The position numbers and the translations under genes were made by a program. From Candidatus Methylacidiphilales bacterium (GTDB taxonomy: Bacteria; Verrucomicrobiota; Verrucomicrobiia; Methylacidiphilales; JAAUTS01): a stretch of DNA of 62,718 nucleotides. The stretch covers positions 1 to 62,718 of the forward strand of contig JAQTNW010000020.1 in the NCBI GenBank assembly GCA_028713655.1, in the 5' to 3' direction. Position 1 is the first letter of the stretch. Every line of letters begins with the position of its first letter. The notes beneath the pieces are model-generated. The model had not been told where the DNA came from and did not search any database. It worked only from the letters and a program-made list of their open reading frames with translations. This document shows, in pieces, positions 1,769-60,734 of the stretch.

Positions 1769-1780
1769 CTCGTTTTTAAA

Positions 1781-1808
1781 GCGCAGACATGTCTGCGCAC
1801 TCCAAAAT
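1781..1808. repeat. Dispersed palindrome, family A (partial copy)
   Basis: Perfect 18-bp palindrome GCGCAGACATGTCTGCGC at 1781-1798 followed by ACTCCAAAA. The same unit (GCGCGGACATGTCCGCGC then ACTCCAAAA) occurs at 49705-49730 inside a larger copy. Confidence 0.75.
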
Positions 1809-3540: not shown

Positions 3541-3742
3541 CGGTACAAGGCTGCGATGTCCTTTTCATGTCAATCCGGTGGAAATTTGCCGCGGTTTTGC
3601 CGCTGCGTTATCGCGAGAACCCAAACCTTTCAATAAGGTGTTTTGAGCGGGAATGAGCGGGAGAATCAAGTGCGCTGGCAAATCGCAGCAGCGGCGGCGC
3701 TTTTTATTCGCGATTCCTCTCGGAGTTGTATTGAGCTGGAAA

Positions 3743-3785
3743 TCCAAAGCGGTGTCGCGCCTCCGGCTTGCCACCGCACTCCATA
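3743..3785. repeat. Dispersed palindrome, family A (hairpin copy)
   Basis: TCCAAAGCGGTG at 3743-3754 pairs with CACCGCACTCCA at 3772-3783 around a GC-rich loop. The same GCGGTG...CACCGC hairpin, flanked by TTTGGAGT/TCCAAA, forms the first arm of the copy at 49644-49730. Confidence 0.7.
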
Positions 3786-3815
3786 TCGCTTCATGGTAAA
3801 AAATGATTTTTTGAT

Positions 3816-7844: not shown

Positions 7845-8030
7845 TCACCGCAGTCGCAGGGGACGCAGAGGAAGAAATAATAAACGAACCCCCTTTTCTT
7901 CCCCCTTGTCAGGGGGATGGATGCTACTTGTCCCAACCGCAAAAAAATGTCTTTCTTGGCGTTTTAGCGTGCGCCACAGGCGCATGGCGACTTTGCGTTA
8001 AAAGCTCTGCGTTCTCCGTGTCTGTGGTAA
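7845..8030. repeat. Intergenic repeat, family D (ACGCAAAG-type), ~186 bp
   Basis: The left arm TTCACCGCAGTCGCAGGGG...ACGCAGAG and the right arm CTCTGCGTTCTCCGTGTCTGTGGTAA form an imperfect terminal inverted repeat. Inside are GACTTTGCGTTAAAA and a CCCCCTTGTCAGGGGG hairpin at 7901-7916, the latter also present at about 61418. It fills most of the 345-bp gap between the parA-like gene and the alpha-2-macroglobulin gene. Confidence 0.65.
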
Positions 8031-47524: not shown

Positions 47525-48468
47525 TGGAACGGATGGGAGAAGAACCGGAATTTGACCTGGCGATTGATGTCCGCGGCATCACCAAACGGTTTGATGGCCG
47601 GACGGTGGTGAACGGCATCGATATGCAGGTGCAGCGCGGCGAGATTTACGGTTTCCTGGGACCAAACGGCAGCGGCAAAACCACGTTTATCCGGATGCTC
47701 TGCGGCCTGCTGCGCGCGGATGGCGGAAGCGGCACATGTCTCGGATACGATGTGCTGACACAGTCGGACAAAATCAAGCGCCATGTGGGCTACATGACGC
47801 AAAAATTCAGCCTCTACGAGGATTTGAGCATTGAGGAGAACCTGGATTTTTTTGCGCGAATTTACAACATGCCGGAGCGCGAAAATGCGGTGCGGGAATC
47901 CCTTGAAAGGCTGGGGCTTGTCGAGCGCCGCGCGCAACTGGCGGGAGCCCTATCAGGAGGCTGGAAACAACGCCTGGCCCTGGCGGCCTGCCTGCTGCAT
48001 CAACCGCAACTCCTGCTGCTGGACGAGCCGACCGCCGGTGTGGACCCCAAGGCGCGGCGCGAATTCTGGCTGGAAATCCACCAACTGGCGCATCGCGGGC
48101 TTACGGTGCTGGTGACCACGCATTACATGGACGAAGCCGAGCAATGCCATCGCCTGGCCTATATCGCATACGGAGACCTGCTGGTCCGGGGATCGGTCGC
48201 CGAAGTAATCGCCCACAGCCGCCTGGTGACCTATGCGGTGACCGGACCGGGCCTGGAACGCATGATCGGGGAAATCCGGGCGTTTCGCGGAATCGAGCAG
48301 GTGGTGCCGTTTGGCGTGAAATTGCATGTGAGCAGCCATGACCGGGCTGCGCTGGAAGCGGCGGCCCGGAAGTTTGGCGGCGGACAAATCCAGTGGGCGC
48401 CGGTGCCATCGGGTCTGGAGGATGTGTTTATTTCACTCATGGGAACGGCCAAGGACCCACACTCATGA
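47524..48468 (+). CDS. ABC transporter ATP-binding protein (YbhF-like single domain)
   Basis: 314 aa from the ATG at 47524. Walker A GPNGSGKTT, Q-loop in GYMTQKFSLYEDLSIEENL, signature LSGGWKQRLALAACLLHQPQ, Walker B LLLLDEPTAGVD, and the switch His in VTTHYMDEAEQC. The C-terminal ~90 residues are an accessory domain common in ABC-2 exporters. It powers the adjacent ABC-2 permease. YbhF of E. coli has two ATPase domains in one chain; this has one. Confidence 0.92.
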   Translation: MERMGEEPEFDLAIDVRGITKRFDGRTVVNGIDMQVQRGEIYGFLGPNGSGKTTFIRMLCGLLRADGGSGTCLGYDVLTQSDKIKRHVGYMTQKFSLYEDLSIEENLDFFARIYNMPERENAVRESLERLGLVERRAQLAGALSGGWKQRLALAACLLHQPQLLLLDEPTAGVDPKARREFWLEIHQLAHRGLTVLVTTHYMDEAEQCHRLAYIAYGDLLVRGSVAEVIAHSRLVTYAVTGPGLERMIGEIRAFRGIEQVVPFGVKLHVSSHDRAALEAAARKFGGGQIQWAPVPSGLEDVFISLMGTAKDPHS

Positions 48469-49607
48469 AAATCCAAAACGAATCCTGGGCGCGCTTTACC
48501 GCGATTCTGCGGAAGGAATTCATCCAGATGCGGCGGGACCGGGTGACCTTTGCCATGATGATCGGCATTCCGCTCATGCAGCTCACGATTTTTGGATTTG
48601 CCATCAATTCCGATCCCAAACATTTGCCGACAGCGGTTGTGGCCGGCGATTCCGGTCCGCTGGTGCGCAGCCTGATGTCGGGAATGAAGAACAGCCTGTA
48701 TTTTGATTTTGTGCCGGAGGAACCGACAGCCGAGGAAGCCGAGCGGATGCTCAGCCTCGGCGAAGTGCAGTTTGTGCTGCATATCCCGGAAAATTTTTCA
48801 CGCTCGCTGGTCCGCGGAGAACGTCCCGCATTATTGCTGGAAGCGGACGCAACCGACCCCGTCGCGACTGGCAATGCGTTGAACGCCATGAATAATCTGG
48901 TGGGTACGGTTTGGGCGCGGGATTTGAGCGGCGGCCTTTCCTATGCGTCATCCGCAGGCAACACGCCGGTGGAATTGCGGGTGCAGGCGCGGTACAATCC
49001 GGAAGGGCTCACCCAATACAATATTGTGCCGGGCCTGATGGGGGTCGTTTTAACCCTGACCATGGTGATCATCACCGCCCTGGCCATTACGCGGGAGCGG
49101 GAACGGGGCACGATGGAAACGCTGCTGGCGACTCCGGCAAGGCCCATTGAGGTGATGTTGGGCAAAATCGTTCCTTATATACTGGTGGGCTACATCCAGA
49201 TCCTGTTGATTTTGGCCGTGGCCCTGACGGTTTTTCGGGTGCCGTTTGAAGGCAACTTTCTGCTCCTGGCCGTGAGCGCGTTTTTCTTCATTGGCGCAAA
49301 TCTGTCGATGGGGATTCTATTTTCAACCATCGCGCGCAATCAGCTTCAGGCGATGCAGATGGCGGTCTTTTTCTTTTTACCCTCCATTTTAATGTCAGGC
49401 TTCATGTTCCCATTCCGGGGCATGCCCGGCTGGGCGCAGGCGCTGGGCAGTTGCCTGCCTCTGACCCATTTTTTGCGGGTGGTGCGCGGGATCATGTTGA
49501 AGGGGAATGGAGTATTGGAAGTGGCGGATTACCTCTGGCCCATCCTGCTTTTCATGGTGATTGTCATCGGGCTGGGTTCCAAGCTGTACCGCAAGACCCT
49601 GGATTAA
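48465..49607 (+). CDS. ABC-2 type permease
   Basis: 380 aa from the ATG at 48465, overlapping the ATPase stop by 4 bp. First membrane helix near residue 20-40 (RVTFAMMIGIPLMQLTIFGF), a ~150-residue periplasmic domain, then five helices with the ABC-2 signature RERERGTMETLLATPARPIE. Ends KLYRKTLD as in YbhS/YhhJ-like permeases. Only one permease gene follows, while YbhGFSR systems have two; the pump would then be a homodimer. Substrate unknown, perhaps a drug or lipid. Confidence 0.9.
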   Translation: MKIQNESWARFTAILRKEFIQMRRDRVTFAMMIGIPLMQLTIFGFAINSDPKHLPTAVVAGDSGPLVRSLMSGMKNSLYFDFVPEEPTAEEAERMLSLGEVQFVLHIPENFSRSLVRGERPALLLEADATDPVATGNALNAMNNLVGTVWARDLSGGLSYASSAGNTPVELRVQARYNPEGLTQYNIVPGLMGVVLTLTMVIITALAITRERERGTMETLLATPARPIEVMLGKIVPYILVGYIQILLILAVALTVFRVPFEGNFLLLAVSAFFFIGANLSMGILFSTIARNQLQAMQMAVFFFLPSILMSGFMFPFRGMPGWAQALGSCLPLTHFLRVVRGIMLKGNGVLEVADYLWPILLFMVIVIGLGSKLYRKTLD

Positions 49608-49643
49608 AGCCGACTATACAATTCCGAATTATCACATGGCGAA

Positions 49644-49730
49644 TTTGGAGTGCGGTGGCACGACACCGCTTTCCACCACGGGCGACATGTCGCCCGTTTC
49701 CAAAGCGCGGACATGTCCGCGCACTCCAAA
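49644..49730. repeat. Dispersed palindrome, family A (complete, three-armed)
   Basis: Outer perfect 11-bp stem TTTGGAGTGCG (49644-49654) / CGCACTCCAAA (49720-49730). Inside are three hairpins: GCGGTG...CACCGC (49652-49669), the 20-bp palindrome ACGGGCGACATGTCGCCCGT (49678-49697), and GCGCGGACATGTCCGCGC (49705-49722). The whole can fold as a cloverleaf. Partial copies at 1781 and 3743. Confidence 0.85.
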
Positions 49731-49756
49731 ACCCAAATCCGCGACGATCCAGTCCA

Positions 49757-49808
49757 CTCTATCAAGAGGGGCAGAGAGGTCGCCGCGGCGAATGCTTCGG
49801 AATGTGTT
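49757..49808. repeat. Dispersed repeat, family B (second copy)
   Basis: ACTCTATCAAGAGGGGCAGA, then GAGGTCGCCGCGGCGAATGC and TTCGGAATGTGTT. It aligns along its length with 16446-16497. It sits 26 bp after the family A element in the same gap. Confidence 0.65.
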
Positions 49809-49912
49809 CCCTGGCATAGCCCTGTATTTTATTGTTACCCGGCCGTTTTGCATGCTAAAGGGTTACTCATACAGGATTTGTTCGATACGAATCTTGTTAA
49901 GCATGGAAGAAA

Positions 49913-50191
49913 ATGAAGAAACTCATCATCTTTTTACTCATCGCAGAGTTCCTTACATCATTTACCGTGCTGGCACCAACTTGCATTCTTCGCCATGATA
50001 TGATTCACGCGATTTCGGTTTATGCGAATAAACCGACACTAGAAAATAAGACTGAGGTGGATAGGCAGAGACAGATAACACAACGATACTCCATCGGCAT
50101 CTCATCTGTTATTTTCAGCATTATGGCAGGTAGCACCTTGTTCTTGTTCCGCATTCGGAAGAATTCGAAAAGCATCATTGAAAAAACCTAG
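49913..50191 (+). CDS. Small membrane protein, unknown, AT-rich
   Basis: 92 aa with two membrane segments: MKKLIIFLLIAEFLTSFTVL at the start and SIGISSVIFSIMAGSTLFLF near the end, with a ~40-residue charged loop containing NKTEVDRQRQITQRYS. GGAAG lies a few bases before the ATG. Composition is more AT-rich than the flanks. No family recognised; it may be acquired. Confidence 0.45.
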   Translation: MKKLIIFLLIAEFLTSFTVLAPTCILRHDMIHAISVYANKPTLENKTEVDRQRQITQRYSIGISSVIFSIMAGSTLFLFRIRKNSKSIIEKT

Positions 50192-50260
50192 ATGGAAATG
50201 GATGGAGACGTCCGCGCTTGACATTGAAGGAAACGCAAACGGCAGCACGTTTGCCGCCGC

Positions 50261-51334
50261 TCATTGCCTACCCGCACAAACTTCAACCGCTTCGCGCACG
50301 AGGTTTTCGGGCACGTCCGGGCACAGGAGCGTCCGCCCAATCTCCGGCACGAGCACCCACTTGACGGTTTTGTTCGTGGATTTTTTGTCGCGCAAAATCA
50401 CCGGCGCCAATTTCTCATAGTCGAGCCCCTCGATCTGCACGGGCAGCTTGTTCGCCTGCAACGCCAAACGCAGCGCCTCCACGGCCTTCACATCCAGCCC
50501 GCAATGCCGGTGCGAGATCCAGGCCGCGCCTATCATCCCAATGGAAACTGCCTCACCATGCAACAGGCGCCCATAGCCCGCCGTTTGCTCAATGGCATGG
50601 CCGATCGTATGCCCAAAATTCAAAATGGCGCGCAACCCGCTTTCCTCGCGTTCATCGTGCGCCACCACATCCGCCTTGATACGCACGGATGTCTCAATAA
50701 TGCCGCCGAGTTCCTTCGGCACGCCGTTCTTGACGACCTCAAACAACGCGGGGTCCCGGATGACGCCGTGTTTCACCACTTCCGCCATCCCGGCTGACAG
50801 TTCGCGCCCGGGCAATGTCGCGAGAAAATCGAGGTCGATCAGCACCTGCTCGGGTTGATAAAACGCTCCGACAAGATTTTTGCCCTCGGGCAAATTCACC
50901 CCTGTCTTGCCGCCCACGCTGCTGTCCACCGCAGCGAGCAAGGTCGTGGGAATCTGAACCAGTCCGATCCCGCGCAAATAAGAAGCCGCGAGAAAACCTC
51001 CCAGATCTCCAATGACGCCCCCACCGATGGCAATCAGCCGACCGCGACGGCTGATATTGTTCCGGGCCAGCTCGGAGCAAAGGCGCGAAAATACGGAAAG
51101 GTCCTTGCTGGGTTCGCCGGCTTCAACCGTCAGTAAAACACTGCTGTCGGCGTTTTTTTGGATAAAATCCCAAAGCGGAGCGAACCAGGACTGGGCCTGC
51201 ACGGTCTTGTCCGTAAGCACCGCGATTTCCGATTTCGCCAGCAGCGGGGCGAGATGCTTTTGGACAATCCCGCGCCCCAGATGAATCGAATAAGCGCGAG
51301 CTCCCAGCTCAACCCGGATGTTTCGTTCAGACAT
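50261..51334 (-). CDS. aroB: 3-dehydroquinate synthase
   Basis: 357 aa from the ATG at 51334 (SERNIRVELGARAYSIHLGR), with AAAGG 6 nt upstream. NAD-binding and active-site segments: IAIGGGVIGDLGGFLAASYL, VQIPTTLLAAVDSSVGGKTG, NLPEGKNLVGAFYQP, RAILNFGHTIGHAIE. It converts DAHP to dehydroquinate in the shikimate pathway, with a divalent metal and NAD. Same strand as rpoD but separated by a ~180-bp repeat region. Confidence 0.95.
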   Translation of the reverse strand: MSERNIRVELGARAYSIHLGRGIVQKHLAPLLAKSEIAVLTDKTVQAQSWFAPLWDFIQKNADSSVLLTVEAGEPSKDLSVFSRLCSELARNNISRRGRLIAIGGGVIGDLGGFLAASYLRGIGLVQIPTTLLAAVDSSVGGKTGVNLPEGKNLVGAFYQPEQVLIDLDFLATLPGRELSAGMAEVVKHGVIRDPALFEVVKNGVPKELGGIIETSVRIKADVVAHDEREESGLRAILNFGHTIGHAIEQTAGYGRLLHGEAVSIGMIGAAWISHRHCGLDVKAVEALRLALQANKLPVQIEGLDYEKLAPVILRDKKSTNKTVKWVLVPEIGRTLLCPDVPENLVREAVEVCAGRQ

Positions 51335-51346
51335 AAAATGCCTTTT

Positions 51347-51501
51347 CTCACGCAGAGACGCTAAGACGCGGAGATTTTGAACCTTTACCAACTCACTTCA
51401 TTTTTTGCGGCCGATCAAAATTGTACTTTGCCGCTTGTTCCAACCCAAAAACGCATTTCGGCTTTCCTGCGCCTTGGCGTCTTATGCTCTTTGCGTTAAA
51501 A
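51347..51501. repeat. MITE-like repeat, family D, ~155 bp
   Basis: Left arm CTCACGCAGAGACGCTAAGA (51348) and right arm GCGCCTTGGCGTCTTATGCT with CTTTGCGTTAAAA (51470-51501) are imperfect inverted copies. Fills the gap between aroB and rpoD. Confidence 0.7.
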
Positions 51502-51514
51502 TCCTTTGTTCGGC

Positions 51515-55506: not shown

Positions 55507-55658
55507 TGCGCCTTGGCGTCTTGCCTTCTTTGCGTTAAAAATCGTTGTTCTATGTGTTGTTTTGCGACTTTGCGTGAAACCCTGTGCTGGTTTTCATCCG
55601 CGTTTATCCGCGTCCATCCGCGGTTCAATTGCCGCGCTTTCTGCGTCTCTGCAGTGAA
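55507..55658. repeat. Family D repeat running into the DUF362 gene start
   Basis: GCGCCTTGGCGTCTTGCCTT and CTTTGCGTTAAAA at 55508-55540, GACTTTGCGTGAAA near 55566, ATCCGCGTTTATCCGCGTCC near 55600, and CTGCGTCTCTGCAGTGAA at 55641-55658, the usual repeat end. That end contains the GTG proposed as start of the next gene. Confidence 0.7.
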
Positions 55659-60501: not shown

Positions 60502-60530
60502 ATCACAAACCCGTGGCTTGCGCCAATTCC

Positions 60531-60670
60531 GTCAATGTCAAGAGGCTGTTGAAAAACCATTACCGAGAGATCAATCCACAGATTACAAGGATTTCCACAG
60601 AGAGGCTGATCGGAAGTTTTTCCAAATCTGTGTAATCTGTGGATTATTTCAACAGCCTCTTGACATTGAC
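60531..60670. repeat. MITE-like palindromic element, 140 bp
   Basis: Perfect 24-bp terminal inverted repeats: 60531-60554 (starting GTCAATGTCAAGAGGCTGTT) and 60647-60670. A second inner pair, ATCCACAGATTACAAGGATT (60573) and its near complement ending at 60644, matches 17 of 20. The interior carries the widespread CACAGATTACACAGATT-type unit. No coding potential. Confidence 0.85.
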
Positions 60671-60734
60671 GTGATCGGAATCAGCTCCGATAGCTTCCAC
60701 ACTCCAGTCCATTCCCGCTCAAAACTCATCGGAA

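Follow-up and report, generated by a model that had tools for sequence, protein, structure and literature searches.

A family of probable REPINs with GGA[G/C]T-tagged arms in a Methylacidiphilales genome and a RAYT clade adjoining such arms in related genomes

REPINs are doublets of REP sequences that form hairpins (Bertels and Rainey, 2011; PMC3116915). The tag of a REP is most often GTAG, and its role in the choice of the cut site is not the same in all of the few enzymes studied: changing guide bases shifted the cut site of the Marinomonas TnpA-REP, while the same approach was unsuccessful in two other systems, according to the available text of PMC8266576. A superfamily of GTAG-tagged REPs has been reported also in Opitutus terrae, a member of the Verrucomicrobia (Di Nocera et al., 2013; PMC3733652), and REP-like hairpins without GT[AG]G have been accepted by Quentin et al., 2018 (PMC6006769), for subclass 2.6 and class 3 of the TnpA-REP proteins. 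Here we analyse an 87-nt element in a stretch of 62,718 nucleotides (the window) from a Candidatus Methylacidiphilales bacterium, and we consider it very likely that the element is a REPIN, that is, two inverted REP arms with the 5' tag GGA[G/C]T around a palindromic spacer, spread by a RAYT.

The draft assembly to which the window belongs, as contig C20, comprises 3.29 Mb in 90 contigs and is 95% complete. The element starts 36 nt past the stop codon of an ABC-2 permease gene (48393-49607), and among the genes tested the next with a Pfam match encodes 3-dehydroquinate synthase (50261-51391, minus strand). It has TTTGGAGTGCG...CGCACTCCAAA at its ends and three hairpins between them (Table 1), the last two of which carry a common GACATGTC core, as the original prediction had it. 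In the minimum-free-energy fold computed for DNA, the three hairpins lie within a closing stem at -30.7 kcal/mol, against a mean of -18.2 for shuffled sequences (z = -5.02; equalled by 0 of 200 shuffles).

Table 1. Coordinates of the element and of related features in the window
Feature	Position	Strand	Basis
Complete three-hairpin element, very likely a REPIN (arm A1, palindromic spacer B, inverted arm C1)	49644..49730	+	Fold and copies
REP arm A1: GGAG tag, T, hairpin 49652-49669, TTT	49647..49672	+	Arm pattern, pairing survey, fold
Spacer palindrome B (ACGGGCGACATGTCGCCCGT)	49678..49697		Fold; kept in 13 copies, with one both-sided change
REP arm C1, inverted; hairpin 49705-49722	49702..49727	-	Arm pattern, pairing survey, covariation
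Single C1 arm, truncated element	1778..1803	-	Arm pattern
Decayed two-arm element: degenerate A3-type arm at about 3668-3706 facing intact A2 arm 3746-3782 (minus strand)	3635..3785		Alignment to L063

Searching the genome by similarity returned 13 near-full-length copies (83-88 nt, 83-100% identity, mean column identity 92%) together with partial ones. The copies are spread over many contigs and their arms are kept, so that neither a repeat confined to the few copies first noticed nor a lack of arm conservation was found. Across the 13 copies the three hairpins are paired in 95-98% of cells, and in each of them both sides of one pair have changed (3 pairs and 5 cells in all). The resulting covariation score of 0.062 was reached by 0 of 500 shuffles, with the caveats that the alignment slid by -3 still scores 0.053 and that the number of further pair types is attained by chance in 494 of 500 shuffles. 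Compensatory change thus gives modest backing for hairpin pairing; because it amounts to 5 cells, the stronger sign that the hairpins matter comes from the arms of other genomes, described below.

The closing stem behaves differently from the hairpins. The original prediction had drawn a three-armed cloverleaf enclosed by an 11-bp outer stem; three hairpins within a closing stem are indeed what the fold gives, but that stem is 8 bp long, with 87.5% of cells paired. None of its pairs has changed on both sides, and in 6 of the 13 copies, those whose A arm carries GGAC (or GTAC), the seventh pair is not formed. The 11-bp version needs bases already engaged in the feet of hairpins A and C, and again no pair in it has changed on both sides. 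The "outer stem" is best read as two facing tags, and we rejected the cloverleaf as a functional unit, since this stem shows no compensatory change.

In most copies the outer 11 nt are indeed inverted repeats, with pairing in 89.5% of cells, as would be expected of a MITE with TTTGGAGTGCG terminal inverted repeats that is moved by a DDE-type transposase and whose hairpins are incidental. We regard this reading as extremely improbable. With the ends taken as TTTGG...CCAAA, a target-site duplication was found in 0 of 13 copies at k >= 3 and in 1 of 13 at k = 2, and both-sided change occurs in the hairpins and not in the terminal pairs. A DDE transposon with such ends was absent from the own-genome similarity and arm-pattern listings. 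Moreover, the recurring unit is the arm, found with other partners and spacers, and both arms with unlike partners and adjacency to RAYT genes, shown below, were observed.

The unit common to these repeats is a single arm of the form GGA[G/C]TGCG-hairpin-CGCTTT. The pattern GGASTGCG-N4-28-CGCTTT had 72 matches in the genome, compared to 1 for a reversed-pattern control, and 71 of them were surveyed after omission of one overlapping double report. They fall into the types A1 (21), A2 (18), C2 (14), C1 (12) and A3 (4), with two others. Thirty-four of the 71 arms form 17 pairs within 120 nt, while the remaining 37 are single by the pattern used. All 17 pairs have their tags outward and all 17 join arms of unlike types (A1-C1 seven times, A1-C2 five, A2-C2 three and A2-A3 twice), and it is this regularity that argues for the element being a REPIN. 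A longer arm pattern added three own-genome pairs (on C5, C8 and C13), also with tags outward. Five arm types in four pair combinations bear out the modular assembly that had been proposed from the window.

Two arms in the window had been described as occurring alone. That at 1778-1803 is single by the patterns used, but the arm within 3743-3785 has a decayed partner: positions 3635-3790 align with a two-arm element at C14:65139-65247 (L063) over 158 nt at 82% identity. At C28:5024-5071 (L015), arm C1 runs into spacer B at the common GACATGTC, which looks like a deletion joining the two at that core. Some two-arm elements have in common an outer extension like GTTTTGAGCGGGAATGAACGGGAA, seen at 3640-3663 and in L045, L051, L056, L058 and L063, and positions 60702-60725 of the window resemble another remnant of such an outer end. 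A further imperfect palindrome, like GATCGCCACATGGCGAATTT, lies upstream of the A1 arm of the window's element at 49630-49646, and similar ones precede A1 arms at seven other loci (L003, L004, L005, L009, L015, L019 and L061); with about 8 of 19 A1 arms inspected having this extra palindrome, some elements may possess a fourth hairpin. The window also contains nested inverted repeats of 32 and 22 nt at 60523-60678, a hairpin unrelated to the REP arms, and a separate dispersed repeat with CTTTGCGTTAAAA at 7970-8010, 51468-51511 and 55507-55587 (families D3, D6 and D13).

Could the element instead be a structured RNA or regulatory element, such as a terminator, an mRNA stabiliser or a riboswitch, kept for its function in the transcript? 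Folded as RNA it is also more stable than its shuffles (z = -3.9; equalled by 0 of 200), and its position just past the permease stop codon would suit such a role. So would the gene orientations around the elements, as a crude ORF picker placed divergent genes on the two sides of 1 of the 21 elements that have two neighbours. As to extragenic location, the same picker, applied to 38 of about 54 elements, left 22 clear of ORFs of at least 90 aa, while 12 overlap ORFs shorter than 200 aa and 4 overlap longer ones. We consider the RNA or regulatory explanation very unlikely, as the sequence of the hairpin varies between genomes and the arms are associated with a transposase gene. An Rfam RNA was rejected because no family matches the element, the sole match in 49000-50200 lying outside it with E 0.39, below the cut-off; an intrinsic terminator was rejected as well, with 0 terminator-like sites (a GC stem followed by a T run) in 49300-50100. 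A secondary RNA or regulatory role may exist beside mobility.

With the REPIN reading in hand, we turn to the enzyme that would move the arms, for which the evidence lies in other genomes. Among 80 of at least 120 arm-bearing loci searched, a match to a RAYT query was found beside arms in two (L117 and L087); a third locus (L101), added because two of its arms are spaced 700 nt apart, has a RAYT-like gene between them. The best family for all three is NF047646 (REP-associated tyrosine transposase) at 69-75 bits, under the cut-off of 80, with no better family. As these loci were fetched by their arms, adjacency there is partly by choice. A profile of the three proteins run over 62 genomes of the order gave strong matches in G003 (E 5e-85) and G005 (E 3e-84), where each RAYT gene is located just downstream of a REPIN, while 28 loci of weaker Y1 matches in the order contained no strict arm.

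We then enlarged the profile with the G003 and G005 proteins and searched 387 genomes of the phylum, many of them drafts and with at most 8 candidates scored per genome. At 1e-15, 63 genomes had a match, and the scores split between 112 and 130 bits, leaving 42 genomes with a RAYT of this clade. The best-scoring loci, one per genome, were taken for 30 of these; because they were fetched by the RAYT and not by arms, the presence of arms there is an open test. A strict arm lies within 300 nt of the clade RAYT in 25 of the 30 loci, and on both sides in 19. Since the profile was built from RAYTs beside arms and the gene at one locus (L217) is that of L087, already in the profile, the count without it is 24 of 29. 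By contrast, 0 of 20 control RAYTs, lower-scoring and hand-picked from nine genomes with a clade match, have a flanking arm. A looser pattern recovered arms at 4 of the 5 exceptions and still at 0 of 20 controls, with only L226 having no nearby arm even so. Arms are also concentrated at the 30 loci, with 69 in the 18 kb near the genes versus 12 in the 65 kb farther off. At the level of genomes, at least 15 arms (a threshold set after seeing the table, with genome lists taken by eye) were found in 26 of 42 genomes with a clade RAYT versus 20 of 345 without (n = 387; Fisher p 2e-17), so that 20 of the 46 arm-rich genomes are without a detected clade RAYT under the scoring limit and draft state given above.

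The clade proteins are about 200 aa long and fold like E. coli TnpA-REP. All 19 aligned sequences keep NHYH, one Trp and one Tyr; some rows have A in place of the P of NP, and in part of the rows a His follows the Trp. A sequence search of the PDB gave 4er8 (E. coli TnpA-REP) at E 1.3e-9 as the only match below E 0.1, and an AlphaFold model of a clade RAYT (mean pLDDT 88.6) had 4er8 as its first Foldseek match, followed by the TnpA proteins of IS608 and ISDra2. These data show that a clade of RAYTs, HUH/Y1 enzymes with the TnpA-REP fold, adjoins GGA[G/C]T arms in many genomes of the phylum.

The window's own assembly has four Y1 genes, on contigs C58, C28, C1 and C5. For those on C1 and C5 the match is to the IS200 family, with C5 scoring below the family cut-off; the IS200-like TnpA locus on C1 (C1:81459-84800, L033) also has GCCCCGTTGGGGC palindromes in a block repeated downstream. 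The genes on C58 (L034) and C28 (L036) are RAYT-like (NF047646, 67 and 52 bits) and resemble the TIR-associated RAYT class outlined in the main text of PMC6006769, each being bracketed by inverted repeats beginning AAAAGGGGTC. As the only RAYT-like genes among the four, either of them, rather than the clade above, might be thought to move the arms of this genome. We judge this highly improbable: they have their own inverted repeats and no arm nearby, RAYTs go with their own REP family according to the main text of PMC6006769, and second-tier RAYTs elsewhere, the 20 controls, have no flanking arms. Indeed, the 3.2-3.3-kb stretches around all four Y1 genes contain no strict arm. No clade RAYT was found in the assembly, for which all 10 first-look candidates were scored, and when relics of a cognate RAYT were sought by tblastn in the window, L200 and 66 own-genome loci, the C28 gene was the sole match. 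The REPINs of this genome therefore appear to be orphans, and they may represent a population that persists after loss of the RAYT, or whose RAYT gene lies in the missing ~5% of the assembly. The absent cognate RAYT is the main weakness of the REPIN/RAYT reading, and because of it the link to a RAYT rests on relatives. The RAYT reading that had been put forward is thus supported, and the Y1 gene with an adjoining copy proposed as its check is found in G003, G005, the three loci fetched by their arms, of which L087 recurs as L217 in the phylum set, and the 25 phylum loci, but not within the window's own genome.

How widely do such arms occur, and what is conserved in them? A narrower arm pattern matched at least 120 stretches in a collection of genome contigs, nearly all of them MAGs, and the groups among the matches listed include Verrucomicrobia, Kiritimatiellae, Lentisphaerae, Hydrogenedentes, a planctomycete, Acidobacteria, Limisphaerales and others. 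MAG records that bear the names Klebsiella pneumoniae and Akkermansia muciniphila also contain arms (L169, L111, L143 and L162); these are perhaps mislabelled or mixed bins. The three-arm pattern had 0 matches in the same collection, from which near relatives may be left out. Within the order, the two-arm pattern occurs in 5 of 62 genomes: G000, G003 and G005 contain it many times, and G017 and G038 have a single match each. G003 and G005, which belong to a sister genus, have the same tag and a different hairpin; on either flank their doublets (L187 and L267-L278) bear one more outer hairpin, similar to GCGCGAAGCGC, for a total of about 106 nt. At the RAYT loci of the 30 relatives, 53 distinct arms form a mean of 3.2 pairs beyond the constant foot, compared to a mean of 1.13 and a maximum of 1.58 when arm halves are re-paired. 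Tag and CGCTTT tail thus recur, and the hairpin sequence they enclose changes from genome to genome yet remains able to pair. Neighbouring arms at these loci are of mixed orientation (17 pairs outward, 7 inward and 1 in tandem; n = 25), and the strict tags-outward rule is therefore a feature of the window's genome.

Comparisons of the same site between genomes bear on mobility. G003:C157 and G005:C123 (L271 and L278) are one site, 96% identical over 2242 nt, with the REPIN in opposite orientation. In Ereboglobus, G136 and G441 carry an element of about 117 nt that G442 lacks at the corresponding intergenic site: its flanks are 75 nt apart there, against 191 nt with the element; the interval in G443 is 109 nt. 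The flanks of the element-less site are 70-76% identical, too diverged to give exact element ends. For the Ereboglobus site L308 only the left flank was found in G441, and in the search for an empty counterpart of a G003 site, that site proved to be split by a contig end at the element.

Mobility was not observed directly, and the mechanism we propose is modelled on TnpA-REP biochemistry as described in the available text of PMC8266576. By analogy with the enzymes of E. coli, Stenotrophomonas and Marinomonas, the arms would fold in single-stranded DNA, and the RAYT would bind hairpin and tag, the tag helping to choose the cut site; the strand would then be cut through a covalent tyrosine link and the doublet moved elsewhere. 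Folding may additionally affect mRNA 3' ends, a claim made for other REPs.

The GGA[G/C] tag occupies the position of the guide tetranucleotide in TnpA-REP substrates. GGAC is found on 14 of the 21 A1 arms, and GGAG on all 48 A2, C1, C2 and A3 arms; by analogy with those substrates, the two may set different cut sites, which would apply to a minority of pairs. One could then imagine a separate branch of REP/RAYT systems in which the GTAG guide is replaced by GGA[G/C]T and some doublets have two guides cut at different dinucleotides. Such a doublet would be a directional single-strand transposon with ends like the left and right ends of IS200/IS605. We consider this unlikely. Unlike tags occur in 7 of 17 own-genome pairs and in only 2 of 25 at the relatives' RAYT loci, which speaks against the generality of two-guide doublets, and the window's copy has GGAG at both ends. 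In any case, this family has many members, a tag other than the usual one and a RAYT clade to go with it, and amounts to a natural experiment on the part of the tag in cleavage. Ereboglobus sp. PH5-10, which unlike most is not recorded as a MAG, is among the genomes with both a clade RAYT (L220, at G136:C2:120688-121251) and arms. For annotators of Verrucomicrobiota genomes, a common hairpin repeat can now be named.

In comparison to known systems, the elements share with REPINs as described in the available text of PMC3116915 a spacer flanked by two REPs in inverted orientation, compensatory changes, single arms that are decayed doublets and association with a RAYT, here in relatives. They differ from them in the GGA[G/C]T tag, in that all 17 own-genome pairs join unlike arms, in that the A1-C1 spacer of the window's genome is itself palindromic and gives a three-arm fold, and in the lack of a cognate RAYT in the window's assembly. 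They are likewise similar to E. coli BIMEs, defined in PMC8266576 as a REP and an inverted REP with a linker, except for the tag. With the GTAG superfamily they have in common tagged hairpins, homo- or heterodimers and structured spacers, but not the tag: GGAG or GGAC is none of the GTAG, GYAG, GYRG, GTRG, GTMG or GTGG given in the available text of PMC3733652, and with canonical GT[AG]G absent they fall outside that superfamily. This is no bar to their being REPs at large, because Quentin et al. accept other tags. In a literature search of limited coverage, outside which most subscription journals lie, we found no paper on a GGA[G/C]T tag; the terms GGAG and Verrucomicrobia are absent from the main text of PMC6006769, and GGAG from the available text of PMC3733652 and PMC8266576. 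The clade RAYTs resemble TnpA-REP subclass 2.8, as presented in the main text of PMC6006769, in NHYH, a motif of the Y-H-NP type, a length of about 200 aa and REP-flanked genes, and part of the clade rows have Trp-His. That subclass comprises 8 members with GT[AG]G REPs, from Cyanobacteria only in the sample studied there, whereas the present clade, compared here by motifs and description, occurs in Verrucomicrobiota and Hydrogenedentes with GGA[G/C]T arms. Because GGA[G/C]T is not GT[AG]G and GGAG is absent from these three REP papers in the text available, we conclude that the GGA[G/C]T tag with its own RAYT clade is probably a new variation within the REP/REPIN kind already known, and not a new kind.
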